A DNA stretch of 64,000 bases from Sinomonas atrocyanea. Its GTDB lineage: Bacteria; Actinomycetota; Actinomycetes; Actinomycetales; Micrococcaceae. The notes beneath the pieces were generated by a model. It made no database searches, had not been told where the DNA came from, and saw only the letters and a program-made list of their open reading frames with translations. The translations under genes and the position numbers were made by a program. Below, piece after piece: positions 4,024-36,476 of the stretch (its first letter is position 1; each line of letters opens with the position of its first letter). Location of the stretch: positions 1-64,000 of the forward strand of contig NZ_JAUSTE010000011.1 of the NCBI RefSeq assembly GCF_030812675.1, written 5' to 3'.

Positions 4024-4030
4024 GATTCTA

Positions 4031-6409: not shown

Positions 6410-6415
6410 CGTCGA

Positions 6416-7126: not shown

Positions 7127-7216
7127 TCACCGAGCCGGCAGGACGCGCGCATCCGCAGGGCAGCTCAAAGCCTATAGTCCTGCATGGGCTAATGGACCAC
7201 CGTTAGGTCGAAGCAG

Positions 7217-7233
7217 CTTCCACTCAGTGGAAG
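7217..7233. promoter_or_regulatory. Operator-like inverted repeat upstream of creJ
   Basis: CTTCCAC-TCA-GTGGAAG is a perfect 7-bp inverted repeat with a 3-nt centre, about 100 bp before the creJ start in the intergenic gap. It is too short and lacks a T-run for a convincing terminator, and its position fits an operator for the cre operon or for the divergent antitoxin gene. No cre-specific regulator gene lies next to it. Confidence 0.4.
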
Positions 7234-7332
7234 GCGACCCAGCACACTTGTCGGTGATCAGGACCACACTGGGACAAGACGCAGAGGCCCGGCCCCCCGC
7301 CGCGCCGAAGGCCACCAGATCAAGGAGTGCTG

Positions 7333-8676
7333 ATGTCACTGGAGACTCAGGGAACGGGCTGCCCGTTCGGGTTCGGCGCCCAGGCGGGCACCGACACGGG
7401 GGCGGCGCCGGCGAGCGCCGGCCACGCGCCGTCGGCCGCGCACAACGCCACCCACCACGGCTACGAGCCGTTCCAGATGAAGAACCCCTTCCCGGCGTAC
7501 GCGACTCTCCGCGCCGAGGAGCCTGTGATGTACGACGAGCGGATCGACCTCTTCGTGGTCACCCGCTACGACGACATCAAGGCCGTCTTCGACGACTGGG
7601 AGACCTTCTCCTCCGAGAACGCCCAGGCCCCGGTCCGCAAGCGCGGCCCGCAGGCCACCCAGATCATGAACGAGGGCGGCTTCACCGCCTACTCGGGCCT
7701 CTCCGCCCGCATCCCCCCGGAGCACACCCGCATCCGCGGCATCGTGCAGAAGGCCTTCACGCCGCGCCGGTTCAAGGTCCTCGAGCCCTTCATCCGTCAG
7801 AACGTCGCCGAGCGCCTGGACGCGATGATCGCGCGCGGCCAGGATACGGCCGCCCACCACGGCGAGATCGTCAAGGACCTCGCCTACGAGGTCCCCACCA
7901 TCACCATCCTCACGCTCATCGGCGAGGACCTCGCCAAGCTGGACGACTACAAGCGCTGGTCCGACTCCCGCGCCGCGATGACCTGGGGCGACCTCTCCGA
8001 CGAGGAGCAGATCCCCCACGCCCACAACCTCGTCCAGTACTGGCAGGCCTGCCTCGCGCTCGTCGCCAAGGCCCACGCCGAGGGCGGCGACAACCTCATC
8101 GCCGACCTCGTCACCGCGCAGAAGGACGGCGCCGAGATCTCCGACCACGAGATCGCCTCGGTGGCCTACAGCCTCCTCTTCGCCGGCCACGAGACCACCA
8201 CCACGCTCATCTCCAACGCCCTCCGCCTCCTCGCGGCAGACGAGAAGACTTGGCAGAAGCTCGTGGAGGACCCCAAGAAGATCCCGGGCGCGATCGACGA
8301 GGTGCTGCGCTACTCCGGCTCGATCGTCGCCTGGCGCCGCAAGGCCCTCAAGGACGCGGAAATCGGCGGGGTGAAGATCCCCAAGGGCTCCGGCATCCTC
8401 CTCGTGATGGGCTCCGCCAACCGCGACGAGTCGAAGTTCGAGGACCCCGAGACCTTCGACATCACTCGCCCCAACGCCCGCGAGCACCTCTCGTTCGGCT
8501 TCGGCATCCACTACTGCCTCGGCAACATGCTCGCCAAGCTCCAGGCCAAGATCGCCATCGAAGAGGCCACGGCCAAGCTCCCCCACTTCACCGTGGACGA
8601 CCCGGAGAGCATCGAGTTCCGCGAGAACCTCTCCTTCCGCGTCCCCGTCTCCGTCCCCGTGAGCTGGACCGAATGA
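7333..8676 (+). CDS. creJ: Cytochrome P450 CreJ, alkylphenyl-phosphate methyl hydroxylase
   Basis: This 447-residue class I P450 has the I-helix AGHETTT (284-290), the ExxR pair E323/R326, and the haem loop FGFGIHYCLG with axial Cys395. In the C. glutamicum cre pathway, CreJ oxidises the methyl group of 4-cresyl phosphate stepwise, taking electrons from ferredoxin (CreF) and its reductase (CreE), both encoded downstream here. Assignment rests on the unique neighbourhood (split PEP-synthase genes next, then SDR, ferredoxin, reductase, HD protein, ALDH) more than on sequence alone. AAGGAG sits 5 nt before ATG 7333; a GTG two codons earlier overlaps that site and is unlikely. Its stop overlaps the first possible start of creI (ATGA at 8673). 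Confidence 0.85.
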   Translation: MSLETQGTGCPFGFGAQAGTDTGAAPASAGHAPSAAHNATHHGYEPFQMKNPFPAYATLRAEEPVMYDERIDLFVVTRYDDIKAVFDDWETFSSENAQAPVRKRGPQATQIMNEGGFTAYSGLSARIPPEHTRIRGIVQKAFTPRRFKVLEPFIRQNVAERLDAMIARGQDTAAHHGEIVKDLAYEVPTITILTLIGEDLAKLDDYKRWSDSRAAMTWGDLSDEEQIPHAHNLVQYWQACLALVAKAHAEGGDNLIADLVTAQKDGAEISDHEIASVAYSLLFAGHETTTTLISNALRLLAADEKTWQKLVEDPKKIPGAIDEVLRYSGSIVAWRRKALKDAEIGGVKIPKGSGILLVMGSANRDESKFEDPETFDITRPNAREHLSFGFGIHYCLGNMLAKLQAKIAIEEATAKLPHFTVDDPESIEFRENLSFRVPVSVPVSWTE

Positions 8677-8705
8677 ACGCGCCGACCACAACCATGGAGC
8701 AGACC

Positions 8706-9821
8706 ATGCAGGACACCCACTTCCAAGACACCGAGTACATCCAGTTCTTCGACGGCGGCACCGAGCCGACCCTCGCGAACCTCGGCGGCAAGGGCGCATC
8801 GCTCGTCACGATGACGTCCGCGGGCATGCCCGTCCCCCCGGGCTTCGTGGTCACCACCGCCCAGTTCGACGCGTTCATGGCCGAGAACCAGATCACGGAG
8901 AGGATCCACGCGCTCCTCGCCGGCCTCAACCCAGAGGACGTCGCCGAGGTCGACGCCGTCTCCGCGACCATCCGCGCGAGCATCGAGGAGTGCCCGGTCC
9001 CGGCCGAGGCCCGCGCGCAGACGGTCGCCGCCTACGAGGCCCTCCAGTCCCGCTTCGACTCCCCCGTCCCGGTCGCCGTCCGCTCCAGCGCCACTGCCGA
9101 GGACCTCCCCGATGCCTCGTTCGCCGGCCAGCAGGACACCTACCTCTGGCTCGAGGGATTCGACGCGGTGGGCGAGCACATCCGCAAGTGCTGGGCCTCC
9201 CTCTACACCTCGCGCGCCATCATCTACCGCCTCAAGAACGGCATCCCCAACGAGGGCCTGTCCATGGCCGTGGTGGTGCAGAAGATGGTCAACGCGAAGG
9301 CCTCCGGCGTTGCCATGACCCTCGACCCCACCAACGGCGACCGCTCCAAGATCACCATCGACGCCTCCTACGGCGTCGGCGAGATGGTGGTCTCCGGCCA
9401 GGTCACCCCGGACAACATCGTCCTGGACAAGGTCACCCTCGCCCTCGTGGCCGAGCACCTCGGCGACAAGCACGCCGAGCTCGTCCCGGACGCCGCCACG
9501 CGCCGCCTCGTGGAGCGCGAGGTCGACGCCGAGCGCCGCTCCCGCCGCTGCCTCACCGACGCGCAGCTCACCGCAGTCGCCACGCTCGCCAAGCGCGCCG
9601 AGAAGCACTACAGGACCCCGCAGGACATCGAGTGGGCCCTCGACGCCGACCTTCCCGACGGCGAGAACCTGCTGCTCCTGCAGGCCCGCCCCGAGACCGT
9701 CCACTCCTCCAAGCCCGCCACCGCACCCCAGCCCGTGGTGAGCCAGAGCGCGCAAGCCGGCGCCGCGCCGTCGTCCGCCACCGGCGGCTTCAGCTGGGGC
9801 TCCATCAAGCTCACCGCCTGA
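8706..9821 (+). CDS. creI: CreI: PEP-synthase-like ATP-grasp subunit of alkylphenol phosphorylase
   Basis: The 371-residue protein is only the N-terminal nucleotide-binding (PPDK_N) part of a PEP synthase: LGGKGASL (26-33), VAVRSSATAEDLPDASFAGQQDT (about 123-145), ASGVAMTLDP (199-208) and a closing LLQARPET. The phosphohistidine and PEP-binding domains are absent and reside in creH next door. Together CreH and CreI make the aryl phosphate ester from a cresol and ATP, the committing step of the pathway, analogous to phenylphosphate synthase. I place the start at ATG 8706 (GGAG 6 nt upstream); ATG 8673 overlapping the creJ stop is the alternative and adds 11 residues. The last 40 residues are a low-complexity tail. 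Confidence 0.82.
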   Translation: MQDTHFQDTEYIQFFDGGTEPTLANLGGKGASLVTMTSAGMPVPPGFVVTTAQFDAFMAENQITERIHALLAGLNPEDVAEVDAVSATIRASIEECPVPAEARAQTVAAYEALQSRFDSPVPVAVRSSATAEDLPDASFAGQQDTYLWLEGFDAVGEHIRKCWASLYTSRAIIYRLKNGIPNEGLSMAVVVQKMVNAKASGVAMTLDPTNGDRSKITIDASYGVGEMVVSGQVTPDNIVLDKVTLALVAEHLGDKHAELVPDAATRRLVEREVDAERRSRRCLTDAQLTAVATLAKRAEKHYRTPQDIEWALDADLPDGENLLLLQARPETVHSSKPATAPQPVVSQSAQAGAAPSSATGGFSWGSIKLTA

Positions 9822-9857
9822 CCCTTCCGTTCGCCCGAACAAGCAGAGGACACACCA

Positions 9858-11780
9858 ATGTCGATGAAGTCCTTCCCGAAGCCGTCCGAGCTCCCGGTCC
9901 CCGCCGGAGCCGAGGGCTGGGAGAAGCTGTACCCCTACTACCTTGTGTTCCAGGACAAGCTCAAGGAGCAGGAGGACGCCAAGTTCTGGTTCTGCGACAG
10001 CCAGCACTGGCCCACCGTCTTCAAGCCGTTCGAGACGATCGGCGGCGAGTTCGCGGTCAAGTGCCTGGGCCAGTACAACGCCCGCCACCTCATGATCCCC
10101 AACGCGAACGGGATCGAGTTCCGCATCCATCTCGGCTACCTCTACATGAGCCCCATCCCGGTGCCGGAGGACCAGATCGCCGCGCGCGTTCCGGACTTCG
10201 AGGAGCGCGTGGGCTACTACTTCCAGAACTGGCCGCGCCTGCTCGAGCAGTGGCACACCAAGGTCAAGGGCACCATCGACGAGATGGAGAGGATCACCTT
10301 CGCCAGGCCCCCGGCCATCGTCCCGATCGAGGACATCCACTCGGGCAAGGCCAAGGACGGCTCCGAGGTCCTCCTCGACAACTACGACCGCCTCATCCAG
10401 CTCGCCTACCAGAACTGGCAGTACCACTTCGAGTTCCTCAACCTCGGATACATCGCCTATCTGGACTTCTTCAATTTCTGCAAGCAGGTCTTCCCGAACA
10501 TCCCGGACCAGTCCATCGCCACCATGGTGCAGGGCGTGGACATGGAGCTGTTCCGCCCCGACGACGAGCTCAAGGGCCTCGCCGCCCTCGCCGTCGAGCT
10601 CGGCATCCAGTCCGCCTTCGAGAACGCGGACGATGCCGACGCCACCTTGGGCGCGATCCGCGCCTCCGCCGGGGGTGACCACTGGATCCAGCGGTGGGAG
10701 GAAGCCCACGAGCCGTGGTTCAACTTCACCGTGGGCAACGGCTTCTACGGCCACGACAAGTACTGGAACGAGCACCCGGAGATCCCGCTCAACTACATCA
10801 AGGACTACATCGCCCGGCTGGACGCGGGGCAGGAGATCCTCCGCCCGGTCGAGGCGCTCATCGCCGAGAAGGAGCGGATCGTCGAGGAGTACCGCGAGCT
10901 GCTCGAGGGCGACAACCTCGCCGCGTTCGACGCCAAGCGCGGCCTGGCCGCCCAGTGCTACCCGTACGTGGAGAACCACAACTTCTACATCGAGCACTGG
11001 ACCATGGGCGTCTTCTGGCGCAAGATCCGCGAGCTCTCCCGCGTCTTCCATGCCGAGGGCTTCTGGACCGAGCCGGACGACCTCCTCTACCTGGGCCGCA
11101 ACGAGGTCCGCGACGCCCTGTTCGACCTCGTGACCTGGTGGGGCGTGGGCGCCTCCGAGCCGATCGGCCCGAGCTACTGGCCCGAGGAGATCGAGCGCCG
11201 CCGCGCCATCGTGGACGCGCTCAAGACCGCCCGGCCCCAGCCCGCCCTCAACACCCCGCCGGCCTCCATCACCGAGCCGTTCACCCGCATGCTCTGGGGC
11301 ATCACCACCGAGCAGGTGCAGCAGTGGCTCGGCGAGGGCGAGGCCGTGGAGGGCGGCGGCCTGCGCGGCATGGCGGCCTCCCCCGGCGTGGTCGAGGGCC
11401 CGGCCCGCGTGGTCACCGACGCGGACCAGCTCTCGGAGGTCCAGCAGGGCGAGATCCTCGTCGCAACCGTCACGGCGCCGTCCTGGGGCCCGATCTTCGG
11501 CAAGATCGCCGCGACCGTCACGGACATCGGCGGCATGATGAGCCACGCCGCCATCGTGTGCCGCGAGTACGGCCTCCCCGCCGTGACCGGCACCGGCTCG
11601 GGCTCCACGACCATCCGCACGGGCCAGATGCTCCGCGTGGACGGAACGAAGGGCACGGTGGAGATCCTCGACGCCGCCCCCGCCCAGGCGGTCGTGTCCG
11701 GCCCGGGCGCGCACAGCCACGCGCACGGCGAGCCGGGTCACGAGCACGGCGAGCACACGCAGGAGCCGGCGCATGCCTGA
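9858..11780 (+). CDS. creH: CreH: PEP-utilising mobile-domain subunit of alkylphenol phosphorylase
   Basis: This 640-residue partner of CreI carries a long unique N-terminal region (1-500) and then the swivelling phosphohistidine domain, with GGMMSHAAIVCREYGLPAV; H563 would carry the phosphate from ATP to the phenol. No nucleotide-binding domain is present, so it needs CreI. The N-terminal region, with many aromatic residues (NWQYHFEFLNLGYIAYLDFF), probably holds the phenol site; this is inference by analogy with phenylphosphate synthase. It ends in an odd His-rich tail (HSHAHGEPGHEHGEH) that could bind metal. AGAGGA lies 7 nt before the ATG. The 3' end overlaps creG by 8 bp. Confidence 0.82.
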   Translation: MSMKSFPKPSELPVPAGAEGWEKLYPYYLVFQDKLKEQEDAKFWFCDSQHWPTVFKPFETIGGEFAVKCLGQYNARHLMIPNANGIEFRIHLGYLYMSPIPVPEDQIAARVPDFEERVGYYFQNWPRLLEQWHTKVKGTIDEMERITFARPPAIVPIEDIHSGKAKDGSEVLLDNYDRLIQLAYQNWQYHFEFLNLGYIAYLDFFNFCKQVFPNIPDQSIATMVQGVDMELFRPDDELKGLAALAVELGIQSAFENADDADATLGAIRASAGGDHWIQRWEEAHEPWFNFTVGNGFYGHDKYWNEHPEIPLNYIKDYIARLDAGQEILRPVEALIAEKERIVEEYRELLEGDNLAAFDAKRGLAAQCYPYVENHNFYIEHWTMGVFWRKIRELSRVFHAEGFWTEPDDLLYLGRNEVRDALFDLVTWWGVGASEPIGPSYWPEEIERRRAIVDALKTARPQPALNTPPASITEPFTRMLWGITTEQVQQWLGEGEAVEGGGLRGMAASPGVVEGPARVVTDADQLSEVQQGEILVATVTAPSWGPIFGKIAATVTDIGGMMSHAAIVCREYGLPAVTGTGSGSTTIRTGQMLRVDGTKGTVEILDAAPAQAVVSGPGAHSHAHGEPGHEHGEHTQEPAHA

Positions 11781-12555
11781 GTCGCCCAACCCCACGCCCG
11801 GTTCCCGGCTCGCGCTCATCACGGGCGCGGCCGGGGGCCTGGGCCGGGCCTTCGCCCTCGGCTTCGCCTCCCGCGGCTACAAGGTGGCCGTCGCGGACGT
11901 GAACGCCGCCGGCGCCGAGGAGACCGCGCAGCTCGTGCGTGAGTCGGCCGTCGAGGGCACCCAGGCCGAGGCCCTCGCCCTCAAGGTCGACGTCACCGAC
12001 GTCGCGTCCACTGAGGCGATGGCCGCGGAAGCGGCCGAGTTCGGCCGAGGCCGGATCGACGTCGTCGTCAACAACGCCGCGATCTACGCCACGGTGACCC
12101 GCAGCCCGTTCGAGGAGATCGACCCCGCCGAGTGGGACCTCGTGATGGGCGTGAACCTCAAGGGCCCGTGGCTCGTGACCCGCGCCGCCAGCCCCTACCT
12201 GGGCGACGGCGGGCGCGTCATCAACCTCTCGAGCGCCACGATCTACTCCGGCTCCGAGCAGTGGGCCCACTACGTGGCCTCCAAGGGCGGCGTCGTGGCC
12301 CTGACCCGGGTCCTGGCCAAGGAGCTCGGCAAGCGCGGGGTCACGGTCAACGCGATCGCCCCCGGGTTCACGCTCACCGAGGCCAGCTACGGGCTCATGG
12401 AGAACGCCGAGACCTACGGCGTGGACCGCGGCTCCATCAAGCGGGCCAGCCAGCCCGAGGACATCGTGGGCGCCGCCCTCTTCCTCGCGAGCCCCGACTC
12501 CTCCTACATGACCGGCCAGACCCTCGTGGTCGACGGCGGCCGGCAGTTCATCTGA
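11773..12555 (+). CDS. creG: CreG: SDR alcohol dehydrogenase
   Basis: A 260-residue classical short-chain dehydrogenase: TGAAGGLG (17-24) binds the nicotinamide cofactor, followed by NNAA, the catalytic Ser in INLSSAT, YVASK (Tyr/Lys), and a C-terminal MTGQTLVVDGG. Asp in VAVADVN after strand 2 favours NAD+. In the cre pathway this enzyme oxidises the hydroxybenzyl alcohol to the aldehyde. Other roles would be possible for an isolated SDR; the assignment depends on its place between creH and creF. It starts inside the end of creH (8-bp overlap), so translation is likely coupled. Confidence 0.78.
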   Translation: MPESPNPTPGSRLALITGAAGGLGRAFALGFASRGYKVAVADVNAAGAEETAQLVRESAVEGTQAEALALKVDVTDVASTEAMAAEAAEFGRGRIDVVVNNAAIYATVTRSPFEEIDPAEWDLVMGVNLKGPWLVTRAASPYLGDGGRVINLSSATIYSGSEQWAHYVASKGGVVALTRVLAKELGKRGVTVNAIAPGFTLTEASYGLMENAETYGVDRGSIKRASQPEDIVGAALFLASPDSSYMTGQTLVVDGGRQFI

Positions 12556-12599
12556 ACCCTTTAGACCACCCTGACACCGATTCTCAGGAGAGCACCCCA

Positions 12600-12923
12600 A
12601 TGACCACTACCGTCCACTACACCGACGCGGAGGGCACCGTCCGGGACATCGAGGGACGCCCCGGCGACTCCGTCATGGAGACCGCCGTGCGCAACGGCGT
12701 GCCGGGCATCGTCGCCGAGTGCGGCGGCTCGCTCTCCTGCGCCACGTGCCACGTCTTTGTCCGCGAGGACTGCCTCGACGAGCTCCCGCCCATCGAGCCC
12801 ATGGAGGACGAGATGCTCTACGGCACCGCCGTGGACCGCGAGGAGAACTCGCGTCTGTCCTGCCAGCTCAAGCTCACGGACGGGATGGACCTGTACGTGA
12901 CCACCCCGGAAACGCAGGTGTGA
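12600..12923 (+). CDS. creF: CreF: [2Fe-2S] ferredoxin
   Basis: 107 residues of the putidaredoxin/adrenodoxin type. The cluster ligands are C41, C47, C50 (CGGSLSCATC) and C88, with the typical RLSCQL context. It carries electrons from the flavoprotein CreE to the P450 CreJ. An AGGAG lies about 9-10 nt before the ATG. It is directly followed by creE with one base between stop and start. Confidence 0.9.
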   Translation: MTTTVHYTDAEGTVRDIEGRPGDSVMETAVRNGVPGIVAECGGSLSCATCHVFVREDCLDELPPIEPMEDEMLYGTAVDREENSRLSCQLKLTDGMDLYVTTPETQV

Positions 12924-12924
12924 C

Positions 12925-14223
12925 ATGGCTGAGAAGACCGGCCTGCTGATCATCGGCGCGAGCCAGTCCGGCGTCCAGCTGGCCATCTCGCTCCGCGCCC
13001 TCGGCTTCGAGGAGCCCATCACCCTCCTCGGCGAGGAGAACCACCGCCCCTACCAGCGCCCGGCCCTCTCCAAGGAGTGGCTCCAGGGCGAGGTGGGCAA
13101 CGAGTCGCTCATCTTCCGCTCCAACGAGTACTGGGACGAGCACCACGTCACCCTCGTCAAGGACCAGCGGATCACGGAGATCCGGAAGAACCCGGACGGC
13201 TCCGGCGTCGCGGTGGCCGCCTCGGGCGCCGAGTTCCCGTTCCAGCGCCTGGCCCTCACGGTCGGGGCGCGGGCGCGGAAGCTCGCGATCGACGGCGGCG
13301 AGCTGGCCGGCGTCGTCTACCTCCGCAACGCCGACGACGCCCTGGCCCTCAAGGCGATCGTGGGCACCGCGTCGGACGTCGTGGTGGTGGGCGGCGGCTT
13401 CATCGGCCTCGAGGCCGCCTCGAGCCTGAAGAAGATGGGCAAGAACGTGGTGGTCCTCGAGGCCGGGCCGCGGCTCGTGGGCCGCGCCGTAGGCGAGGAG
13501 ACCGCGCAGTTCTTCCTCGACGCCCACCGGGCCCGCGGCCTCGACATCCGGCTCGGCGCGAAGATCACCCGGTTCGTGCCGGGCTCCGGCGAGGCGGATT
13601 CCGTCGCCGGGGCCGAGCTGGCGGCCGATGGTGGTGCCGAGCCCGAGGTCGTCCCGGCGCAGATCGTGCTCGTGGGCATCGGCGTCGTGCCGAACACCGA
13701 GCTGGCCGAGCAGATGGGCCTGGCCGTGGACAACGGGATCGTGGTGGACCAGTACGCGCTCGCCTCGGACGGCACCACGGTGGCCGTGGGCGACTGCGCC
13801 AACATGCCCAATCCGGTCCCCGGCTCCCCCGCCGGCGAGCGCATCCGGCTCGAGAGCGTCAACAACGCGATCGAGCACGCGAAGGTCGCGGCGTACTCCC
13901 TCATGGGCCGGCGTGAGGACTACGCGGGCATCCCGTGGTTCTGGTCCAACCAGGCCGACCTCAAGCTGCAGATCGCCGGCCTGTCCATGGGCTTCGACCA
14001 GACGGTGGTGCGCCGGGACGACGAGCGCGGCAAGTTCTCCGTGCTCTACTACCGGACCGGCCGGATCATTGCCGCCGACTGCGTCAACGCCCCGCTGGAC
14101 TTCATGGCCGTCAAGAACGCCCTCGCCAAGGGCCAGAACATCCCGGCCGACGCGGTCCAGGCCGCCGCGCCGGACGTGCAGCTGAAGACCCTGGCCGTCC
14201 CGCTCGCCCCGGCACCCGCCTGA
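12925..14223 (+). CDS. creE: CreE: NAD(P)H-dependent ferredoxin reductase
   Basis: The 432-residue flavoprotein has an N-terminal FAD Rossmann motif (LLIIGASQSGVQLA; the usual GxGxxG is changed to GASQSG), the PYQRPALSKEWL segment typical of putidaredoxin-reductase-like enzymes, an NAD-binding VVVVGGGFIGLEAA, and the second FAD motif VAVGDCAN. It completes the class I redox chain for CreJ. A 'GVQLA' in place of the common AAQTA is also seen in some rubredoxin/ferredoxin reductases and should not prevent FAD binding. The start codon is one base after the creF stop, preceded by AGGTG. The pair creF-creE almost certainly serves this P450, though it may also serve others. Confidence 0.88.
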   Translation: MAEKTGLLIIGASQSGVQLAISLRALGFEEPITLLGEENHRPYQRPALSKEWLQGEVGNESLIFRSNEYWDEHHVTLVKDQRITEIRKNPDGSGVAVAASGAEFPFQRLALTVGARARKLAIDGGELAGVVYLRNADDALALKAIVGTASDVVVVGGGFIGLEAASSLKKMGKNVVVLEAGPRLVGRAVGEETAQFFLDAHRARGLDIRLGAKITRFVPGSGEADSVAGAELAADGGAEPEVVPAQIVLVGIGVVPNTELAEQMGLAVDNGIVVDQYALASDGTTVAVGDCANMPNPVPGSPAGERIRLESVNNAIEHAKVAAYSLMGRREDYAGIPWFWSNQADLKLQIAGLSMGFDQTVVRRDDERGKFSVLYYRTGRIIAADCVNAPLDFMAVKNALAKGQNIPADAVQAAAPDVQLKTLAVPLAPAPA

Positions 14224-14285
14224 TCGTCCGGCCCCCATCTGCCGGCACAGCGCCGATCCTCGAATTCCTTGCCCCGGAGGACCCC

Positions 14286-15083
14286 ATGACTGACCAGCCC
14301 ACCCTTGCTTCGCCGGAGGCGAGCGCACCCGCGAGCGCCGCACCGCCGCCCAGCGCGGGCCAGCCCGCCGGCGGCCCCGCCGTGGACTCCGCCCGCGCCG
14401 ACGCGTTCGCCGCCGCCTACCCCGTGCGGCCCGTGCCGGCAGAGGGACCCGTAGACACCCGTCCCATCTGCGAGACGCCTGGGACGGCCGGCCCCGGTGG
14501 GCGCCTCGACCCGCTCTGGAAGGCCGTGGTCGAGTACACCCGCACCCGCGGCAACGACATCCACCTCCCCATGTCGGTGGCCTACGCCGAGCGCCTGTGC
14601 GATGCCTACCCGTCCGCTGACCGCGAGCTCGTACTCGTCGCCGTGCTCCTGCACGACACCGGCTGGGCCCGCGTCGACGAGTCCCGCATCCTCTCCGAGG
14701 GCTTCACCGGCGACTGGCGCAAGGCCCAGATCCGCTACGAGCACGAGCACCAGGGCTGCCTCGTGGCGCGCGAGGTGCTGCCCGGGCTCGGGTACGCGGA
14801 CGAGTTCGTCGAGCGCGTCACGGCGATCATCGACGGGCACGACACCCGCCACGTCGCCTACTCCCTCGAGGACGCCCTCATGCGCGACGCCGACCGGCTC
14901 TGGCGGTTCGACCGCGCCGGGATCGCCCTCGCGTCGTCGTGGTTCGGCATGGACCCGGCCACCTACACGGACCGCCTCGCCGACGAGATCGTGCCCGAGC
15001 TCATCACCGCCGCGGCCGTCGAGATGGCCAGCACCGACCTCGCGCGCTCCACCGCGCTGCTCCAGACGGGAGTGCTCCGATGA
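14286..15083 (+). CDS. creD: CreD: HD-superfamily phosphohydrolase
   Basis: A 265-residue protein with an HD metal site: H93 in DIHLPMS, H123-D124 in LLHDTGW, H153/H155 in YEHEHQG, H185-D186 in DGHDTRH and D201/D203 in RDADRLW. Such sites use two metals to cleave phosphoesters. In the cre pathway it removes the phosphate after the methyl group has been oxidised, releasing hydroxybenzyl alcohol or its oxidised forms. The first 60 residues are Ala/Pro-rich and probably disordered. GGAGG lies 5 nt before the ATG. Its stop overlaps the creC start (ATGA). Confidence 0.8.
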   Translation: MTDQPTLASPEASAPASAAPPPSAGQPAGGPAVDSARADAFAAAYPVRPVPAEGPVDTRPICETPGTAGPGGRLDPLWKAVVEYTRTRGNDIHLPMSVAYAERLCDAYPSADRELVLVAVLLHDTGWARVDESRILSEGFTGDWRKAQIRYEHEHQGCLVAREVLPGLGYADEFVERVTAIIDGHDTRHVAYSLEDALMRDADRLWRFDRAGIALASSWFGMDPATYTDRLADEIVPELITAAAVEMASTDLARSTALLQTGVLR

Positions 15084-16699
15084 CTGTCCCCGCCCACACC
15101 GGCGCCAGCCACACCGGCGCGACCCAGAACACCGGCTTCACGGCCGCGGGAGGCGAGCGGCCGGCGTCGTCCGCCTCCGGCCCCGACGCCCGCGGGCGCC
15201 GCGCCGCCCTCGCCCTGCCCTACACGCGGGTGGACGACGTGTTCGTCGACGGCGCGTGGGTCCCCGCGCGGGCCACCGGCCGCAACCCGGTCACCGACCC
15301 GGCCACGGGCGAGGTCTGGGGCGAGGTCCCGGACGGGTCGGCGGAGGACGTCGACGCCGCGGTGCACGCCGCGCGCCACGCCTTCGACGCCGGCCCCTGG
15401 CCCCGCCTCTCCCCCTCCGAGCGCGCGGCGTACCTGCTGCGGATCGCGGACGAGATCGAGTCGCGCGCCGAGGACCTCGCGCTGACGAACACGCGCGAGA
15501 ACGGCTCACCGATCACCGAGACCCGCGGGGCTGCGGCGAACGCGGCGGGGATCTTCCGCTACTTCGCCACCCTCGCCGAGTACCTCGAGCGCGAGGACGT
15601 GCGGCCGTTCCCGTTCGCCCCGGGCCAGGAGTCCGTGGTGCGCCGCGATCCCGTGGGGGTGTGCGCGCTCATCGCACCGTGGAACTTCCCGATCAACCTC
15701 GTGGTCATCAAGCTCGCCCCGGCGCTGCTGGCAGGGTGCACCGTGGTGATCAAGCCGGCCTCGCCCACGCCGCTGTCGATCCGGTTCATCGTCGACGCGG
15801 TCGCGGCGGCGGGGGTGCCGGCCGGCGTCGTGAACCTCGTGACGGGGTCGGGCCGGATGGGCGATGTGCTCGTCAAGCATCCCGGCGTGGACAAGGTCGC
15901 GTTCACCGGGTCCACGCCGGTGGGGCGGCGCATCGCGGCCGCGTGCGGGGAGCTGCTGCGGCCGGTGACGCTCGAGCTGGGCGGGAAGTCGAGCGCGATC
16001 GTGCTGCCGGACGCCGACCTGGACGCGATGTCCAAGGTTCTGATCCGGTCCTCGATGCGCAACACGGGCCAGACCTGCTACATCTCCACGCGCATCCTCG
16101 CGCCGGCCTCGCGGTACCGCGAGGTGGTGGACATGGCGGCGTCGGTCATCGCCGCGGCGCCGCAGGGCGACCCGCTCGACCCCGCCACGGTCTTCGGGCC
16201 GAGCGCCACGAAGTCCCAGTTCGACACGGTCATGGGGTACGTGGAGTCCGGCCTCGCGGAAGGCGCGCGGGCGGCGACCGGCGGCAGGGCGGCGTCGTTC
16301 GCGGCCGGAAGCGGCCTCGAGGGCGGCTTCTTCGTGGGGCCGACCGTGTTCGCCGACGTCACCCCCTCGATGCGCGTGGCCCGCGAGGAGATCTTCGGTC
16401 CCGTCCTGACGGTCCTGAAGTACGACGACGCCGGGCGGGCTCGCGGGGTCGACGAGGCCGTGGCGCTGGCGAACAACACCGAGTTCGGGCTCGGCGGCCT
16501 CGTGTTCTCGGCCGACCCCGAGGCGGCCCTGGCCGTCGCGGACCGGGTGGACACCGGTTCGATCGGCATCAACTTCTTCGCCTCGAACCACTCGGCCCCG
16601 TTCGGCGGCCGGCACGACTCCGGCCTCGGGACGGAGTACGGGATCGAGGGCCTGGGCGGGTACCTGACCTACAAGTCGATCCACCGGAAGGCGGGGTAG
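15080..16699 (+). CDS. creC: CreC: hydroxybenzaldehyde dehydrogenase (ALDH family)
   Basis: 539 residues of the aldehyde dehydrogenase superfamily: APWNFP (N202), the NAD-binding GS in AFTGSTPVGR, catalytic E299 in LELGGKSS and the nucleophile C333 in NTGQTCYIS. It should take 4-hydroxybenzaldehyde to 4-hydroxybenzoate as the last cre step. The N terminus is about 45 residues longer than usual and rich in Ala/Gly/Thr, probably a flexible leader. It overlaps creD by 4 bp (ATGA) and ends the operon; a hairpin follows within 45 bp. Confidence 0.82.
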   Translation: MTVPAHTGASHTGATQNTGFTAAGGERPASSASGPDARGRRAALALPYTRVDDVFVDGAWVPARATGRNPVTDPATGEVWGEVPDGSAEDVDAAVHAARHAFDAGPWPRLSPSERAAYLLRIADEIESRAEDLALTNTRENGSPITETRGAAANAAGIFRYFATLAEYLEREDVRPFPFAPGQESVVRRDPVGVCALIAPWNFPINLVVIKLAPALLAGCTVVIKPASPTPLSIRFIVDAVAAAGVPAGVVNLVTGSGRMGDVLVKHPGVDKVAFTGSTPVGRRIAAACGELLRPVTLELGGKSSAIVLPDADLDAMSKVLIRSSMRNTGQTCYISTRILAPASRYREVVDMAASVIAAAPQGDPLDPATVFGPSATKSQFDTVMGYVESGLAEGARAATGGRAASFAAGSGLEGGFFVGPTVFADVTPSMRVAREEIFGPVLTVLKYDDAGRARGVDEAVALANNTEFGLGGLVFSADPEAALAVADRVDTGSIGINFFASNHSAPFGGRHDSGLGTEYGIEGLGGYLTYKSIHRKAG

Positions 16700-16713
16700 G
16701 CGGAAGGGGTGCT

Positions 16714-16742
16714 CCCCGGCCGTCACACCGGGGCGGACGGCC
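16714..16742 (+). terminator. Candidate terminator of the cre operon
   Basis: GGCCGTC at 16718-16724 pairs with GACGGCC at 16736-16742 around an 11-nt loop. A competing stem, CCCCGG at 16714-16719 with CCGGGG at 16728-16733, overlaps it. There is no T-run, as is common in high-G+C actinobacteria. It lies 15-43 bp after the creC stop. Confidence 0.45.
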
Positions 16743-16825
16743 CTCTCGGGATGAGTGGAACGGCGTAGGCTGGGAAACGCATCACGAGGGACCGGATTGA
16801 GGGCCCCGCGCAAGGAGGCAGACCC

Positions 16826-17596: not shown

Positions 17597-17623
17597 GGTT
17601 CTCCGCGGGGGAGGTGAGGTGCC

Positions 17624-18344: not shown

Positions 18345-18364
18345 CTGTATTCTAAAATAGGAGT

Positions 18365-29478: not shown

Positions 29479-30309
29479 TCAGGCGGCCCCGACCGCGCGG
29501 GCGGCCTCGGCGATCGACACCGCGGCGGCGCGCAGCTCGGGCACGAGGCGGGCGAGCTCGGCGTCGCGCCCCGCATCCCGGCCGTCGCCGTCGATCCGCG
29601 CGGAGAGGGCCATGTTGATTGCGGCGAGCGTGCGCCCGTCCGCCCCCAGCACCGGGACCGCGAGCGAGCGCAGGCCCACCTCGAGCTCCTGGTCGACGAC
29701 GGCGTACCCCGCCTCGCGCACCCGGCGCACCTCGGCTTCGATCGCCTCGCGCGAGGTCAGGGTGCGCGGCGTGAGCGGGGTGAGTTCCGCGCGGGCGAAG
29801 TAGGCAGCGAGCTCGGCCGGCGGGAGGGCGGCGAGCAGGACGCGGCCCATCGACGTCGCGTGCGCGGGGAACCGCGTGCCCGGCGAGATGCCCACCGAGA
29901 TGATCCGGCGTGTGTGGATCCGGGCCAGGTACACGATGTCGGTGCCGTCGAGGATCGCGAGCGAGGTCGACTCGCCGTGCCGGTGCGAGAGCTCCTCGAG
30001 GATCGGCTGGGCGAGCTCGGGCAGCTGCTGGCCGGAGAGGTAGGCGTAGCCGAGCTGGAGCACGAGCGGGGTGAGCGCGAAGGTCCGCCCATCCGTGCGC
30101 ACGTACCCCAGCTCGACGAGCGTGTGGAGGAACCGGCGGGCCGTGGCCCGCGTGAGCGCCGTCCGCGCGGCCACCTCCGAGAGCGTCATCTCCTGGTGCT
30201 CGGCGTCGAACGCGCGCACCACGGCGAGCCCGCGCGCGAGCGACTGCACGAACGCGTCGCCCGGTCTCGACTCCGCGTCGCTCCGCTCAACCACCGGGGG
30301 TTCGGCCAC
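29479..30309 (-). CDS. pcaR: PcaR/PobR-type IclR regulator
   Basis: 276 residues. An N-terminal winged HTH (MTLSEVAARTALTRATARRFLHTLVELGYV) is followed by the IclR effector domain, with ISVGISPGTRFPAHATSMGRVLLAALP and the closing INMALSA. It matches the Pca regulon regulatory subfamily, which responds to beta-ketoadipate-pathway intermediates. It is the last gene of the pca block, 32 bp after pcaJ. The start is GTG at 30309 with GAGAGG upstream; the longer open frame to 30681 runs through pcaJ and is spurious. Candidate operators occur upstream of pcaH and mobA. Confidence 0.82.
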   Translation of the reverse strand: MAEPPVVERSDAESRPGDAFVQSLARGLAVVRAFDAEHQEMTLSEVAARTALTRATARRFLHTLVELGYVRTDGRTFALTPLVLQLGYAYLSGQQLPELAQPILEELSHRHGESTSLAILDGTDIVYLARIHTRRIISVGISPGTRFPAHATSMGRVLLAALPPAELAAYFARAELTPLTPRTLTSREAIEAEVRRVREAGYAVVDQELEVGLRSLAVPVLGADGRTLAAINMALSARIDGDGRDAGRDAELARLVPELRAAAVSIAEAARAVGAA

Positions 30310-30341
30310 GGGTTCCTCTCTGCTGGCAGGCTGCTCTGGGC

Positions 30342-31049
30342 TCAGGCGGCGGGCAGCAGCGGCACGTCCACGAGGCCCTGGAGGCCCTCGAAGCTGATGC
30401 CGAACGTCTCGCGGACGCGCACGCCCTCCTCCGTGATGAGGAAGACCGCCTTCTCCGTGTACACCCGGGTCACGCAGCCCACGCCGGTCACAGGGTACGT
30501 CAGCTCGGGGACGAGCTTGGACTTCCCGTCCTTGGTCAGCAGCGTCATCATCACGTAGACGTCCTTCGCGCCGGTCGCGAGGTCCATCGCGCCGCCCACG
30601 GCCGGGATCGCGTCCGGGGCGCCGGTGTGCCAGTTCGCGAGGTCCCCCGTCGCGGAGACCTGGAACGCGCCGAGCACGCACACGTCGAGGTGGCCGCCGC
30701 GCATGATCGCGAACGAGTCGGCGTGGTGGAAGTAGCTCGCGCCCGGCAGCTCGGTGACGGGGATCTTGCCCGCGTTGATGAGGTCCTGGTCGATCTGGTC
30801 GCCCACCGCGACCGGGCCCATCCCGAGCATCCCGTTCTCGGTGTGCAGCGTGATGTCCTGCTCCTCGGTGAGGTAGTTGGACACGTTGGTGGGCTGGCCG
30901 ATGCCGAGGTTCACGAAGGAGCCCGGCGCGATGTCCTTCGCCACCAGCTTGGCCATGTCGTCGCGGCCCAGGGGTGCGTCGCTGCTCTGGGGCACGGTGC
31001 CCGAGGCGGTGTCCGCCGAGGTGAGGTCCGACGTCGTCTGCTCGCCCAT
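30342..31049 (-). CDS. pcaJ: 3-oxoadipate CoA-transferase, subunit B
   Basis: 235 residues of the CoA-transferase beta subunit: GSFVNLGIGQPTNVSNYL and the catalytic glutamate in HTENGMLGMGP. With PcaI it moves CoA from succinyl-CoA to 3-oxoadipate. About 30 extra N-terminal residues (Ser/Thr-rich) precede the conserved DDMAKLVAKDI. It begins 4 bp after the pcaI stop. Confidence 0.93.
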   Translation of the reverse strand: MGEQTTSDLTSADTASGTVPQSSDAPLGRDDMAKLVAKDIAPGSFVNLGIGQPTNVSNYLTEEQDITLHTENGMLGMGPVAVGDQIDQDLINAGKIPVTELPGASYFHHADSFAIMRGGHLDVCVLGAFQVSATGDLANWHTGAPDAIPAVGGAMDLATGAKDVYVMMTLLTKDGKSKLVPELTYPVTGVGCVTRVYTEKAVFLITEEGVRVRETFGISFEGLQGLVDVPLLPAA

Positions 31050-31053
31050 GCTT

Positions 31054-31722
31054 TCAGCCCACCTTCACGATCGTGTTGACATAGATGCCCGGAGTGATGA
31101 CGTTCTCGGGGTCGAGGCCGCCGACCGGCACGACCTCGGCAACCTGCACCACGGTGTGCTTCGCGGCGGCGGCCATGATGGGGCCGAAGTTGCGGGCGGT
31201 CTTGCGGTAGACGAGGTTGCCCTTGCCGTCCGCCTTGAGGGCCTTGATGAGGGCCACGTCGGCGTGGATCGGGGTCTCGAAGACCTGCCACTTCCCGTCG
31301 AGGAAGCGGGTCTCCTTGCCCTCGGCGAGCATGGTGCCGTAGCCGGTCGGGGTGAAGAAGCCGCCGATCCCGGCGCCCGCGGCGCGGATGCGCTCGGCGA
31401 GGTTGCCCTGCGGGACGAGCTCGAGCTCGATCTCCCCCGCGCGGTACTTCGCGTCGAAGTGCCACGAGTCGCTCTGCCTCGGGAAGGAGCAGATCATCTT
31501 CTTCACGCGGCCCTCCTTGATGAGGAGCGCGAGGCCCTCGTCGGCCTGGCCCGCGTTGTTGTTGACCACGGTGAGCTCCTTCGCCCCGCCCTGGAGCAGC
31601 GCGTCGATGAGCTCGAACGGCTGCCCGGCGTTGCCGAATCCGCCGATCATCACGGTCGAGCCGTCCCGGACGGCCGCCACGGCCTCCGCGGCGGTGTCCT
31701 TGAACTGGAGTGTGTGTGCCAT
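31054..31722 (-). CDS. pcaI: 3-oxoadipate CoA-transferase, subunit A
   Basis: 222 residues with the alpha-subunit glycine loop GSTVMIGGFGNAGQP, followed by TVVNNNAG and GIGGFFTPTGYGT. It pairs with PcaJ to activate 3-oxoadipate as its CoA ester. The gene lies 9 bp after pcaF and 4 bp before pcaJ, so the two subunits are made together. Confidence 0.94.
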   Translation of the reverse strand: MAHTLQFKDTAAEAVAAVRDGSTVMIGGFGNAGQPFELIDALLQGGAKELTVVNNNAGQADEGLALLIKEGRVKKMICSFPRQSDSWHFDAKYRAGEIELELVPQGNLAERIRAAGAGIGGFFTPTGYGTMLAEGKETRFLDGKWQVFETPIHADVALIKALKADGKGNLVYRKTARNFGPIMAAAAKHTVVQVAEVVPVGGLDPENVITPGIYVNTIVKVG

Positions 31723-31731
31723 GCCGGTCCC

Positions 31732-32979
31732 TTACTTCGCGTTGACGTTCTCGAGCACCACTGCGAGGCCCTGGCCCACGCCGATGCAGATGGCCGCGAC
31801 GCCCCACCGCTGGCCGCTGCGCTGGAGCGAGCGGGCGAGCGTGCCGAGGATGCGGCCGCCCGAGGCACCGAGCGGGTGGCCCATCGCGATCGCGCCGCCG
31901 TGCTGGTTGACGATCTCGGGGTCGATCTTCCACGCGTCCACGCAGGCGAGGGACTGGGCGGCGAAGGCCTCGTTGAGCTCGACGGCGCCGACCTCGTCCC
32001 AGCCGATCCCCGCCTTGGCGAGGGCCCGGTTCGCGGCCTCGACCGGCGCGAAGCCGAAGTACTGCGGCTCGTTGGCGGCGGCGCCGCGGCCGGCGATGCG
32101 CGCGATCGGCTCCAGGCCCAGCGTGCCCGCGGCGCCCTCGGAGCCGAGCAGCACGGCGGAGGCGCCGTCGGAGAGCGGGGAGGCGTTGCCGGCAGTGACG
32201 GTGCCGCCCGCCGTCGTCCCCGAGCGGTCGCCGTTGTCCTTGCGGAACACGGTCTTGAGCCCGGCGAGCTTCTCGGCGGAGGAGCCGGGACGGATGCCCT
32301 CGTCGCGGGTGAGGTCGGTGCCGGGCACCGGGACCACGAGGTCGTCGTAGAAGCCGGCGTTCCACGCGGCGTCGGCGAGGTTGTGGGAGCGGGCGGCGAA
32401 CTCGTCCTGGCGGTCGCGGCCGATCGAGAAGCGCTCGCGCAGCTGCTCGGTCGCCTCGCCGAGGGAGACGGTCCACTCGGCGGGCATGTTCTTGTTCACG
32501 AGGCGCCAGCCGAGCGTGGTGGAGGCGAGGGCCATGTCGCCGGCCGGGTAGGGCTTCTCGGTCTTGGGCAGGACCCAGGGCGCGCGGGACATGGACTCGA
32601 CGCCGCCCACGAGCATGACGTCGGCGTCGCCCACCTGGATCTGGCGGGAGGCGATCATCGCGGCGTCGAGGGAGGAGCCGCAGAGCCGGTTCACCGTGGT
32701 GCCCGGGATCGAGACCGGCAGGCCCGCGAGGAGGGTGGCCATGCGGGCCACGTTGCGGTTCTCCTCGCCGGCACCGTTGGCGTTGCCGAAGATGACCTCG
32801 TCGATCGCGCCGGGCTCGCCGCCCGCTCCCTCGAGGGCCTCGGGGGTCAGGCCCGGGGCGCGGTCCACGATCGAGCGGACCATGTGGGCCGCGAGGTCGT
32901 CGGGGCGGACGCCGGCCAGGCCGCTGCCGAACTTGCCGAACGGGGTGCGGATGGCGTCGTAGACGAACGCGTCAGTCAT
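31732..32979 (-). CDS. pcaF: 3-oxoadipyl-CoA thiolase
   Basis: 415 residues of the thiolase family: acylated Cys100 in VNRLCGSSLDA, NEAFAAQ, the His in GGAIAMGHPLGASG and the second Cys in ICIGVGQGLA. It cleaves 3-oxoadipyl-CoA to succinyl-CoA and acetyl-CoA, the final step. The start overlaps the pcaC stop (ATGA). It is slightly longer than common thiolases because of a GAGGEPGA-type insertion around residue 50. Confidence 0.93.
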   Translation of the reverse strand: MTDAFVYDAIRTPFGKFGSGLAGVRPDDLAAHMVRSIVDRAPGLTPEALEGAGGEPGAIDEVIFGNANGAGEENRNVARMATLLAGLPVSIPGTTVNRLCGSSLDAAMIASRQIQVGDADVMLVGGVESMSRAPWVLPKTEKPYPAGDMALASTTLGWRLVNKNMPAEWTVSLGEATEQLRERFSIGRDRQDEFAARSHNLADAAWNAGFYDDLVVPVPGTDLTRDEGIRPGSSAEKLAGLKTVFRKDNGDRSGTTAGGTVTAGNASPLSDGASAVLLGSEGAAGTLGLEPIARIAGRGAAANEPQYFGFAPVEAANRALAKAGIGWDEVGAVELNEAFAAQSLACVDAWKIDPEIVNQHGGAIAMGHPLGASGGRILGTLARSLQRSGQRWGVAAICIGVGQGLAVVLENVNAK

Positions 32980-33446
32980 GAGTTCGAGTCCTTAGTGCTG
33001 TCTGCATCAATCTGGTCGAGGGTCTTCTGGGCCACCTTGAAGGCGGTGTTGGCCGAGGGGACCCCGCAGTAGATCGCGCTCTGCAGGATCACCTCCTTGA
33101 TCTCGTCCCGCGTGAGCCCGTTGCGCAGGGCGGCGCGGACGTGCATCGCGAACTCGTCCCAGTGCCCGTGCGCGATCATCGCGGTGAGCACGGCGACCGA
33201 GCGCATCTGGCGGCTGAGGCCGGGCCGCGTCCAGATGCCGCCCCACGCGATGCGGGTGATCATGTTCTGGAACTCCGCCGTGAACTCGGTGGTGTTCGCG
33301 TTGGCGCGGTCCACGTGCTCGTCGGAGAGCACCTCGCGGCGCACGGCCAGGCCGCCGTCGTACAGCTCGCGCTGGGTGGCGTCGGGCTGGACGGCCCCGG
33401 CCCGCTCCTGCGGGACCCAGTTCTCGCCGGCCTGCTGGTGGCTCAT
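32976..33446 (-). CDS. pcaC: 4-carboxymuconolactone decarboxylase
   Basis: 156 residues of the CMD/AhpD fold; the core runs from REVLSDEHVDRA to the conserved ITRIAWGGIWTRPGLSRQMRS, HWDEFAMHVRAALRNG and ILQSAIYCGVPSANTAF. It decarboxylates 4-carboxymuconolactone to the enol-lactone handed to PcaD. GGAGGCGCG precedes ATG 33446. Here it is a separate gene rather than the PcaDC fusion (PcaL) seen in some actinobacteria, although the two overlap by 4 bp. Confidence 0.93.
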   Translation of the reverse strand: MSHQQAGENWVPQERAGAVQPDATQRELYDGGLAVRREVLSDEHVDRANANTTEFTAEFQNMITRIAWGGIWTRPGLSRQMRSVAVLTAMIAHGHWDEFAMHVRAALRNGLTRDEIKEVILQSAIYCGVPSANTAFKVAQKTLDQIDADSTKDSNS

Positions 33447-34303
33447 CGCGCCTCCTGCCCGGCGCCGGATCCGTCCACGCCGCTCACCGTGCGGGCGGCC
33501 GCGGCGAAGTGCTTGCGGAGCAGGTCTGCGACGAGGGCCGGGTCCTCGGTGGGCGCGATGTGCGCCACGCCCGGGACCTCGACGGCGGTGCCGTCCTGCG
33601 CGTGCTCGGCCATCCACCGGGCATCGGCGATGGGGCAGACCGAGTCGAATTCGCCGGCCACAGCGAGGAACGGCACCGCGATCTCGCCGAAGCGGTCGCG
33701 GACGTCGTACGCGGCGATGGCGCGGCAGACCGCCGCGTAGCCGAACCGGTCGGCGTCGCGCAGGGTGTGGAGGAGGCGCGAGGACTCGGTGGGGTGGGAG
33801 CCCAGGAAGCCGGGGGCGAACCAGATCTCGGCCGAGGCCTGCAGGCGGACGGCGGTGCCCTGCTTGGCGACCTGGTCGGCGCGCTCGGCGTAGCCCTCGG
33901 CGCCGTTGAAGCGGGCCGAGGAGCAGAACATCGCCAGGCTCAGGAGCCGTTCGGGGTGCCGCAGGGCCAGTTCGGCGCCCGTGGCGCCGCCCACGGAGTC
34001 GCCGGCGTAGTGGAAGCGGACCGGCCGTTCATCACCGCGGGCTGGGACGATCGAGTCGACGAGGGCCACGACCGCGTCCGCGAGTTCCCCGATGCTGAAC
34101 TCGGTGTCGGGGTCCGCGGCGGGCGAGATGCCGTGGCCGGGCAGGTCCCAGCCGAGGATGTCGTAGTCGTCGCCGAGGAGGCGCGCGGCGTCGTCCCACA
34201 TGACGGTCGAGGTTCCGAGCGACGGCCCGAGCACCACGAGCTCCTTGTCCCCGAGCTGCTCGCGCGGGCTGAGGCGGACGGCCTTGATCTTCGGCATGCT
34301 CAC
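33443..34303 (-). CDS. pcaD: 3-oxoadipate enol-lactonase
   Basis: 286 residues of the alpha/beta-hydrolase fold: LGTSTVMWDDAA, GWDLPGHGIS, the nucleophile Ser in AGDSVGGATG, an acid in AGEFDSVCP and a His in VAHIAPTEDP. It hydrolyses 3-oxoadipate enol-lactone. AAGGAC lies 6 nt before GTG 34303, which I take as the start; ATG 34297 is two codons on. Overlaps pcaC by 4 bp. Confidence 0.9.
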   Translation of the reverse strand: MSMPKIKAVRLSPREQLGDKELVVLGPSLGTSTVMWDDAARLLGDDYDILGWDLPGHGISPAADPDTEFSIGELADAVVALVDSIVPARGDERPVRFHYAGDSVGGATGAELALRHPERLLSLAMFCSSARFNGAEGYAERADQVAKQGTAVRLQASAEIWFAPGFLGSHPTESSRLLHTLRDADRFGYAAVCRAIAAYDVRDRFGEIAVPFLAVAGEFDSVCPIADARWMAEHAQDGTAVEVPGVAHIAPTEDPALVADLLRKHFAAAARTVSGVDGSGAGQEAR

Positions 34304-34366
34304 GTGCTGGTCCTTTCCTTCAGGTGTCACTGGATGTCGTGGAGCGGGTCTCAGCGTGGCGCAGGG

Positions 34367-35866: not shown

Positions 35867-35885
35867 CGTGTCTTCCTTGCCCGGG

Positions 35886-36476
35886 CTAGGCCTGGCCGTG
35901 GAAGTCGAGGAACACGGTCTCGTCCTCGCCCTGCAGCCGGATGTCCCAGTGGAGCGAGCCGTCGGCGAGGCGCTCTGCGACGAGCGTCTTGCGGCGGGCG
36001 GGCTCGAGGGCGGACAGGACGGGGTCGTTCGCGAGGGCCTCGGCGTCTTCGGGCAGGTACACGCGGGTGAACAGGCGGTTCAGCAGGCCGCGGGCGAACA
36101 CGGTCACGGCGATGAACGGCGCCTTGCCGGGCTCGGTGGGTCCGGGGTTGACCGTCGTGAAGACGTACTTGCCCGTGTTGCCCACCGCGACGCGGCCCCA
36201 GCCGGTGAACGTGCGGCCATCGCGGACCAGCGAGCCGGTCTCGGCGACCACGTTGCCCTTGGCGTCCGCCTGCCAGATTTCCAGCAGCGCGTCCGGAATC
36301 GGGTCGCCGTGACCGTCCAGCACCGTGCCGTGCAGCGTGATGCTGTCCGGGGAGCCCGGCGGTACGAGCTCCCCGCCCTTCTCGAACGGCAGCGCGAAGC
36401 CGTAGAACGGGCCGATGGTCTGCGCCGGCGTCTCGGTCAGGCTGGTCTTCGTGCTGTTCACGTTCTCAGTGCTCAT
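35886..36476 (-). CDS. pcaG: Protocatechuate 3,4-dioxygenase, alpha subunit
   Basis: 196 residues: TPAQTIGPFYGFALPF, then the intradiol core ITLHGTVLDGHGDPIPDALLEIWQA. The alpha chain lacks the iron ligands but shapes the active site with PcaH. Its start lies inside the end of pcaH (11-bp overlap), ensuring matched expression. Confidence 0.95.
   Translation of the reverse strand: MSTENVNSTKTSLTETPAQTIGPFYGFALPFEKGGELVPPGSPDSITLHGTVLDGHGDPIPDALLEIWQADAKGNVVAETGSLVRDGRTFTGWGRVAVGNTGKYVFTTVNPGPTEPGKAPFIAVTVFARGLLNRLFTRVYLPEDAEALANDPVLSALEPARRKTLVAERLADGSLHWDIRLQGEDETVFLDFHGQA

Follow-up and report, generated by a model that had tools for sequence, protein, structure and literature searches.

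The first 64,000 nucleotides of contig NZ_JAUSTE010000011.1 of the soil bacterium Sinomonas atrocyanea (assembly GCF_030812675.1; the whole stretch is called the window here) contain eight genes that very probably form an orthologue of the cre operon, a pathway in which the pollutant p-cresol, and probably also related 4-alkylphenols, would be phosphorylated before being oxidized. The genes are intact, closely packed and all on the forward strand (7333-16699) in the order creJ-I-H-G-F-E-D-C, and their Pfam matches follow one another as p450, PPDK_N, PEP-utilizers, adh_short_C2, Fer2, Pyr_redox_2 with Reductase_C, HD and Aldedh. The operon holds a two-subunit phenol kinase (CreH, with the catalytic His, and the ATP-grasp protein CreI), a P450 (CreJ) accompanied by its own ferredoxin (CreF) and reductase (CreE), and an HD-domain phosphohydrolase, a short-chain dehydrogenase and an aldehyde dehydrogenase in the order expected of cre genes. 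The same eight genes, with a shared locus-tag order, make up the Corynebacterium glutamicum cluster cg0637-cg0645 (creC to creJ; PMC7764795). Creation of these reading frames by chance in G+C-rich DNA is ruled out by the conservation of gene order across bacterial families. Coding regions overlap by 4 nt at J/I, 8 nt at H/G and 4 nt at D/C, and are separated by 36 nt at I/H, 44 nt at G/F, 1 nt at F/E and 62 nt at E/D; the G+C fraction at third codon positions ranges from 0.936 to 0.975 per gene. The initial annotation, made from the letters of the DNA, had described a complete creJIHGFEDC operon, and its open frames, gene identities, order and single strand are all borne out.

Related loci were collected by a pattern-based scan of 84,980 species genomes, which gave 361 stretches with a CreH relative at E 1e-3; since only the best 80 were retained, the sample is biased towards close relatives. 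(Loci are labelled L, contigs C and genomes G, the window genome being G000.) Of these 80 relatives, 72 carry all eight genes with identities of at least 50 %, arranged as in the window and on one strand; in five of the 72, the match to a single gene covers under 70 % of it (L021, L040, L059, L069 and L086; in L040 and L059 it is the CreE match that is partial). Five of the eight exceptions (L029, L034, L050, L068 and L085) sit at the end of a contig or on a short one, and L076 (Microbacterium lacus) is without creE and creF. The creI and creJ relatives of L081 (Streptomyces) sit on another contig, and L009 (Sinomonas notoginsengisoli, genome G037) keeps creHGFEDC without creI and creJ, for which only distant matches are found genome-wide (168 and 83 bits, respectively). 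At the level of the family, 50 of 295 genomes pass the cut-off of the NCBIfam model NF006150, 49 of them with more than 1000 bits; the fiftieth (G001, 694 bits) belongs to the Hpe-like group of the CreH tree discussed below. Nine of the 15 listed Sinomonas genomes, that of L009 included, have a CreH match above 1000 bits. The pathway had initially been called rare, a description that has to be abandoned: 72 of the 80 relatives carry the whole ordered set of genes and 49 of the 295 family genomes have a strong CreH match, the pathway is both known and common, and the cre operon, as judged from its genes, is widespread in Actinomycetota. Once a one-species curiosity, the pathway begins to look like a common module of actinobacteria whose gene order is strict. 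Kinases for 4-alkylphenols have already been reported as a clade of their own (PMC9618137). We also note two cre operons on the chromosome of Arthrobacter sp. C2 (L038 and L045), whose CreH proteins group with different genera, and a contig labelled as an Acidobacteria metagenome-assembled genome (L034) whose CreH is 84 % identical to that of the window and which is perhaps a misbinned Micrococcaceae contig.

Table 1. The cre operon, its predicted operator and the associated pca cluster; coordinates are those of the window
Feature	Coordinates	Strand	Basis and remarks
Palindrome TTCCACTCAGTGGAA, predicted operator of an IclR-type regulator	7218..7232	.	115 bp before the creJ start
creJ, cytochrome P450, 447 aa	7333..8676	+	PF00067; 5xjn_A, 675 bits over residues 37-446; Cys395
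creI, ATP-grasp subunit of phenol kinase, 382 aa	8673..9821	+	PF01326 PPDK_N, 369 bits
creH, swivel and phenol-binding subunit, catalytic His563, 640 aa	9858..11780	+	PF00391; NF006150, 1243 bits; motif TDIGGMMSHAAI; tree
creG, short-chain dehydrogenase, predicted 4-hydroxybenzyl alcohol dehydrogenase	11773..12555	+	PF13561, 203 bits; role as in the gene table of PMC7764795
creF, [2Fe-2S] ferredoxin, 107 aa	12600..12923	+	PF00111; C41, C47, C50, C88
creE, FAD-dependent ferredoxin reductase, 432 aa	12925..14223	+	PF07992 and PF14759
creD, HD-domain phosphohydrolase, 265 aa	14286..15083	+	PF01966, 35 bits; conserved His/Asp residues
creC, aldehyde dehydrogenase, predicted 4-hydroxybenzaldehyde dehydrogenase, 539 aa	15080..16699	+	PF00171, 510 bits; E299, C333
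Protocatechuate-branch pca cluster (regulator, J, I, F, C, D, B, G, H), an associated feature outside the operon	29479..37284	-	NCBIfam

When the PDB was searched with CreJ, the best matches were 5xjn and 7ccf (675 bits) and 5gwe (674 bits), the next sequence scoring 241 bits; the PDB listing names no organism for these three entries, which we take to be C. glutamicum CreJ. The P450 of the Corynebacterium gallinarum cre locus, which is 71 % identical to CreJ of the window, matches the same entries with 798 bits. The CreH score of 1243 bits against NF006150 is above the cut-off of 650. A tree of 82 CreH-type sequences was built by a quick method from the window, 73 relatives and eight Hpe-like paralogues, and contains no C. 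glutamicum CreH, verified HpeH or PpsA. A branch with a Shimodaira-Hasegawa-like approximate likelihood ratio (SH-aLRT) support of 99 has the eight paralogues on one side, and the window CreH stands among the CreH rows, its nearest neighbours being Sinomonas, in keeping with the Micrococcaceae-like origin that had been proposed. The residue preceding the catalytic His is Ser in all 74 CreH rows and Cys in the eight paralogues, matching the Ser of CreH and the Cys of HpeH described in PMC12167813; the label Hpe-like is based on this Cys together with biotin-carboxylase-like reading frames read beside the paralogues without a family search. Best matches in unrelated families without synteny had been named as an outcome that would refute the annotation; the families and synteny instead match cre.

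The likeness to Hpe proteins raises the question of whether the window locus could be a hydroxyphenylethanone (Hpe-type) cluster, since HpeH shares about 45 % identity with CreH (PMC12167813) and eight genomes of the family hold Hpe-like loci. The probability of this is close to negligible: there is no biotin-dependent carboxylase among the eight cre genes, which have a P450 system instead, the kinase is separated from the Hpe-like rows by the well-supported branch described above, and the window genome has no second full-length kinase match. An Hpe-type function was thus rejected on gene content and on the tree. HpeHI of Rhodococcus rhodochrous GD02, too, is a phenol kinase made of two components and a relative of rifampin phosphotransferase (PMC12167813, PMC9618137), but in the hpe pathway phosphorylation is followed by carboxylation, whereas in cre it is followed by P450 oxidation, and the residue that precedes the catalytic His is Cys in Hpe and Ser in cre. 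By its published description, phenylphosphate synthase (PpsAB) of Thauera aromatica also phosphorylates a phenol as a first step (PMC12167813), in an anaerobic phenol pathway. The split kinase recognized in the initial annotation stands, although a two-component relative of rifampin phosphotransferase is a better description of it than PEP-synthase-like. The Hpe-like kinase loci with their carboxylase-like reading frames are L107-L114, and three of the eight genomes carrying them belong to the genus of the window.

The active-site residues named at the outset (CreJ C395, CreH H563, the four Cys of CreF, the HD pair at 123-124 of CreD, and CreC E299 and C333) are all found at these positions and are strongly conserved when the window is aligned with 73 relatives (L076 and the 72 loci that have the full set of eight genes). 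C395 and H563 are identical in 74 of 74 rows, and CreF C41, C47, C50 and C88 in 73 of 73, L076 being without CreF. Identity at CreC E299 and C333 extends to 72 of the 74 rows and at CreD H93, H123, D124, H153, H185 and D186 to 71; the remaining rows have gaps there and no substitutions, the gaps probably arising from hits cut at contig ends or from the simple extension of ORFs that was used. Ser154, Tyr167 and Lys171 of CreG are identical in all of the rows aligned at these positions (71 of 74). For 30 combinations of gene and locus, the extended ORF ended short of the BLAST hit, and these were treated as alignment edges: for J, H, E and C the stop is no more than 78 bp from the hit end, and for G and D it follows soon after the hit start, which is itself upstream of the gene.

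By analogy with homologues described in the literature, CreI would bind ATP and the phosphate would pass to His563 of CreH and then to the phenol hydroxyl. Electrons from NAD(P)H would be transferred through CreE and CreF to CreJ, which would oxidize the methyl group of the aryl phosphate; CreD would then remove the phosphate, and CreG and CreC would finish the oxidation to 4-hydroxybenzoate. Du et al. reportedly described in 2016 how phosphorylated intermediates serve as substrates of CreJEF and how CreD, CreG and CreC complete the pathway. These roles fit the gene table of PMC7764795, where it is also stated that a C. glutamicum chassis strain without the cre operon is unable to use p-cresol. 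For homologous kinases, PMC12167813 describes an ATP-grasp subunit that presents ATP and a swivel-domain His that takes up the phosphate and passes it to the phenol, and calls the reason why cells phosphorylate the phenol first unclear. We infer that the Sinomonas strain of the window would be active on cresol.

A route from 4-hydroxybenzoate to central metabolism is present in the same genome, and would consist of a PobA-like enzyme encoded on another contig and of the pca cluster, which, as had been noted, lies in the same window as the operon. The pca regulator and PcaJ, I, C, G and H score over their NCBIfam cut-offs, and the PcaF, PcaD and PcaB models score below theirs. Because a nitrosuccinate lyase model (351 bits) outscores PcaB (274-276 bits) on the pcaB gene, all being below cut-off, this assignment depends on position as well. 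The PobA-like gene (C6:193013-194167) is the one strong match of a genome-wide search, and its product matches PDB entry 8weq, named 4-hydroxybenzoate 3-monooxygenase, with 649 bits over residues 1-394 of 396. In the fetched flanks of the 80 relatives, a pobA relative is seen at 18 loci and pcaH at nine (E 1e-40).

Evidence on the substrate comes from plasmids, among which only two of 72,556 records have a CreJ match at E 1e-100, both from Rhodococcus (NZ_CP129900.1 and NZ_CP021355.1; L162 and L163). On both, the cre operon directly adjoins genes annotated as parts of toluene monooxygenase or toluene-4-monooxygenase. The product of such an enzyme from toluene would be p-cresol, and these neighbours therefore provide independent support for p-cresol as the substrate. 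The two plasmids are typed as conjugative and mobilizable. It is conceivable that the main substrate is another 4-substituted phenol, such as 4-ethylphenol or a lignin-derived phenol, handled by the same chemistry, a reading that overlaps with the one preferred here. HpeHI is promiscuous, its rate with cresol being nearly a quarter of that with 4-hydroxyacetophenone (PMC12167813), so that the substrate ranges of these kinases overlap; nevertheless, the conservation of all eight genes with the cre set and the toluene monooxygenase genes on the two plasmids make a different main substrate unlikely.

Several points weigh against the assignment as an orthologous p-cresol operon. The resemblance to C. 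glutamicum is judged from locus tags and from PDB entries taken to be its CreJ. A PDB search matched no solved structure to CreD, and no specific NCBIfam model was passed by CreD, CreE, CreG or CreC. The PobA-like protein scores 378 bits against TIGR02360, which has a cut-off of 539, and substrate range is not readable from sequence.

The initial annotation read the operon correctly but missed a conserved palindrome before creJ and a regulator that is not adjacent to it. A k-mer search seeded with the 300 bp preceding creJ in the window yielded one strongly conserved element, the palindrome TTCCACTSAGTGGAA, whose best 14-mers occur with at most three mismatches in 60 of 72 loci; a single shuffle of each locus left 0 or 1. 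Searched for as a 15-base palindrome with up to 3 of 14 positions mismatched, it is found in 60 of the 72 loci no more than 500 bp before the creJ hit, the expectation from the remaining sequence of these loci being 0.016 sites per 500 bp. Apart from the copy in the window, the 4.12 Mb genome has no perfect match; at two mismatches or fewer, 0.04 matches would be expected in the window.

The likely regulator was recognized from the neighbours of creJ elsewhere, using as queries the IclR and second HD-domain genes of L076 (which is itself counted) in the 67 loci where 3.5 kb or more of sequence precedes creJ. Of these 67 loci, 60 (59 of 66 without L076) have an IclR relative with at least 42 % identity and more than 150 bits no further than 4 kb from the creJ hit, and a relative of the second HD-domain gene, whose L076 product is 32 % identical to CreD, lies within 4.5 kb in 34, or 33 of 66. 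In L046, one of the seven loci lacking the upstream IclR gene, an IclR relative flanks the operon at its opposite end; the window locus, L007, L008 and L010 have neither gene beside creJ. In C. gallinarum, the nearest named relative, the IclR gene is adjacent and no second HD-domain gene was found; the C. glutamicum locus itself was not seen. In the window genome, the closest relatives of the IclR-type and second HD-domain genes form a pair on another contig (C6:198607-200140), about 4.4 kb from pobA, and they are 92 % and 80 % identical to the copies in Sinomonas gamaensis. C6 and C11, which carries cre, are separate contigs of a draft assembly. Three other Sinomonas genomes have the pair on the same contig as cre, about 38 kb (G037), 39 kb (G226) and 122 kb (G121) away, and the pobA region of the window genome aligns with the equivalent stretches of all three. 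The region containing the pair (L152 11482-13168; G000 C6:198481-200167) is also near an MFS transporter gene.

The palindrome recurs beside this pair. A copy with two mismatches (C6:198533-198547) lies 60 bp before the start of homology to the second HD-domain gene; it is the one before the HD/IclR pair among the four other sites with two mismatches in the genome. G226 and G121 each have a one-mismatch palindrome before creJ and a three-mismatch site at or near the equivalent place before the HD-domain gene (L153 11498 and L155 8274). G037, without creI and creJ, has no site before its HD-domain gene (L154) and none at cre with up to two mismatches. The palindrome is probably the operator of the IclR regulator encoded near pobA, which would act on cre in trans, and the regulator probably also controls its own genes through it. 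This provides a concrete, testable pair of predicted operator and regulator for cre. Other observations weaken the case for an operator. Twelve of the 72 loci are without the palindrome at three mismatches or fewer (L015, L063, L067, L071, L073, L074, L077, L078, L079, L080, L082 and L084), although a weaker copy is visible in the upstream sequence of L015. A reversed-pattern control gave no sites in G000 and G121, two in G226 and one in G037. In G226, a two-mismatch palindrome (C13:310042-310056) abuts another, distant IclR gene, suggesting that the motif may be shared with paralogous regulators.

The name creR is reportedly used in the C. glutamicum cluster, and a previously described regulator is possible. 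Deletion of another IclR regulator, Cg3388, raises creF RNA (PMC7764795), so that a second regulator may act in C. glutamicum. Among open-licence papers we found none presenting the palindrome as a cre operator or pairing it with an IclR regulator, and none treating Sinomonas together with cresol; the name creR was absent from those that turned up in a further search. A GAF-ANTAR gene after creC (16826-17596) is unlikely to be a general cre regulator, being present in three of the 80 relatives (L007, L008 and L009), all Sinomonas. A sigma-70 scan of 6300-18500 gave no promoter-like sites, with 0.4 expected anyway, and a terminator scan of the same region gave one terminator-like site, on the other strand and before the operon, with 3.2 expected.

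The separation of the regulator also bears on whether the operon might be present but silent, or in the course of being lost. The loss of creI and creJ from the sister species S. notoginsengisoli and the patchy distribution within the genus (9/15 genomes with a strong CreH match) point the same way, but none of the eight frames in the window is broken and its predicted operator matches perfectly, and we regard silence or decay as very unlikely. A functional cre operon, regulated from a distance, is the reading that we prefer; relative to the known pathway, the separated regulator, the predicted operator and a creJ-creI fusion are new.

This fusion is seen in Rhodococcus tukisamuensis (L063, about 7598-9964) and Prescottella agglutinans (L082, about 7566-9932), where creJ and creI form one uninterrupted frame; they are the only two of 73 aligned relatives with a CreJ frame longer than 450 aa, and both are among the loci without the palindrome. 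In the two Rhodococcus plasmid copies the genes are unfused. The fusion suggests that the P450 and the kinase work close together. Because two relatives fuse these genes and those of the window overlap, it is possible, if doubtful, that kinase and P450 form a coupled unit in which the aryl phosphate would pass from CreH/CreI to CreJ, and which in the window genome would be tied to 4-hydroxybenzoate catabolism by the pobA-near regulator acting in trans on the palindrome. A different variant is L076 (cre at 7669-14889), which is without creE and creF at the locus; its genome has no close CreE (best match 70 bits), CreF not having been sought genome-wide. Upstream of its HD-IclR-creJ genes, and divergent from them, lie a flavodoxin gene and a pyridine-nucleotide reductase-like gene (4027-5738), and a swap of the redox partner is plausible. 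The fusion, the locus without creE and creF and the loss of creI and creJ all offer handles on why cells phosphorylate the phenol first.

Among the other genes of the window, a PIN-like and a MerR/DUF433 gene (5996-7126) form a toxin-antitoxin-like pair divergent from creJ; neither is matched in any of the 80 relatives. To their left, 4031-5599 encodes a protein with a GmrSD restriction endonuclease N-terminal domain. A further aromatic oxidation gene (53097-54998) encodes an FAD monooxygenase of the phenol hydroxylase type (PF01494 and PF07976).

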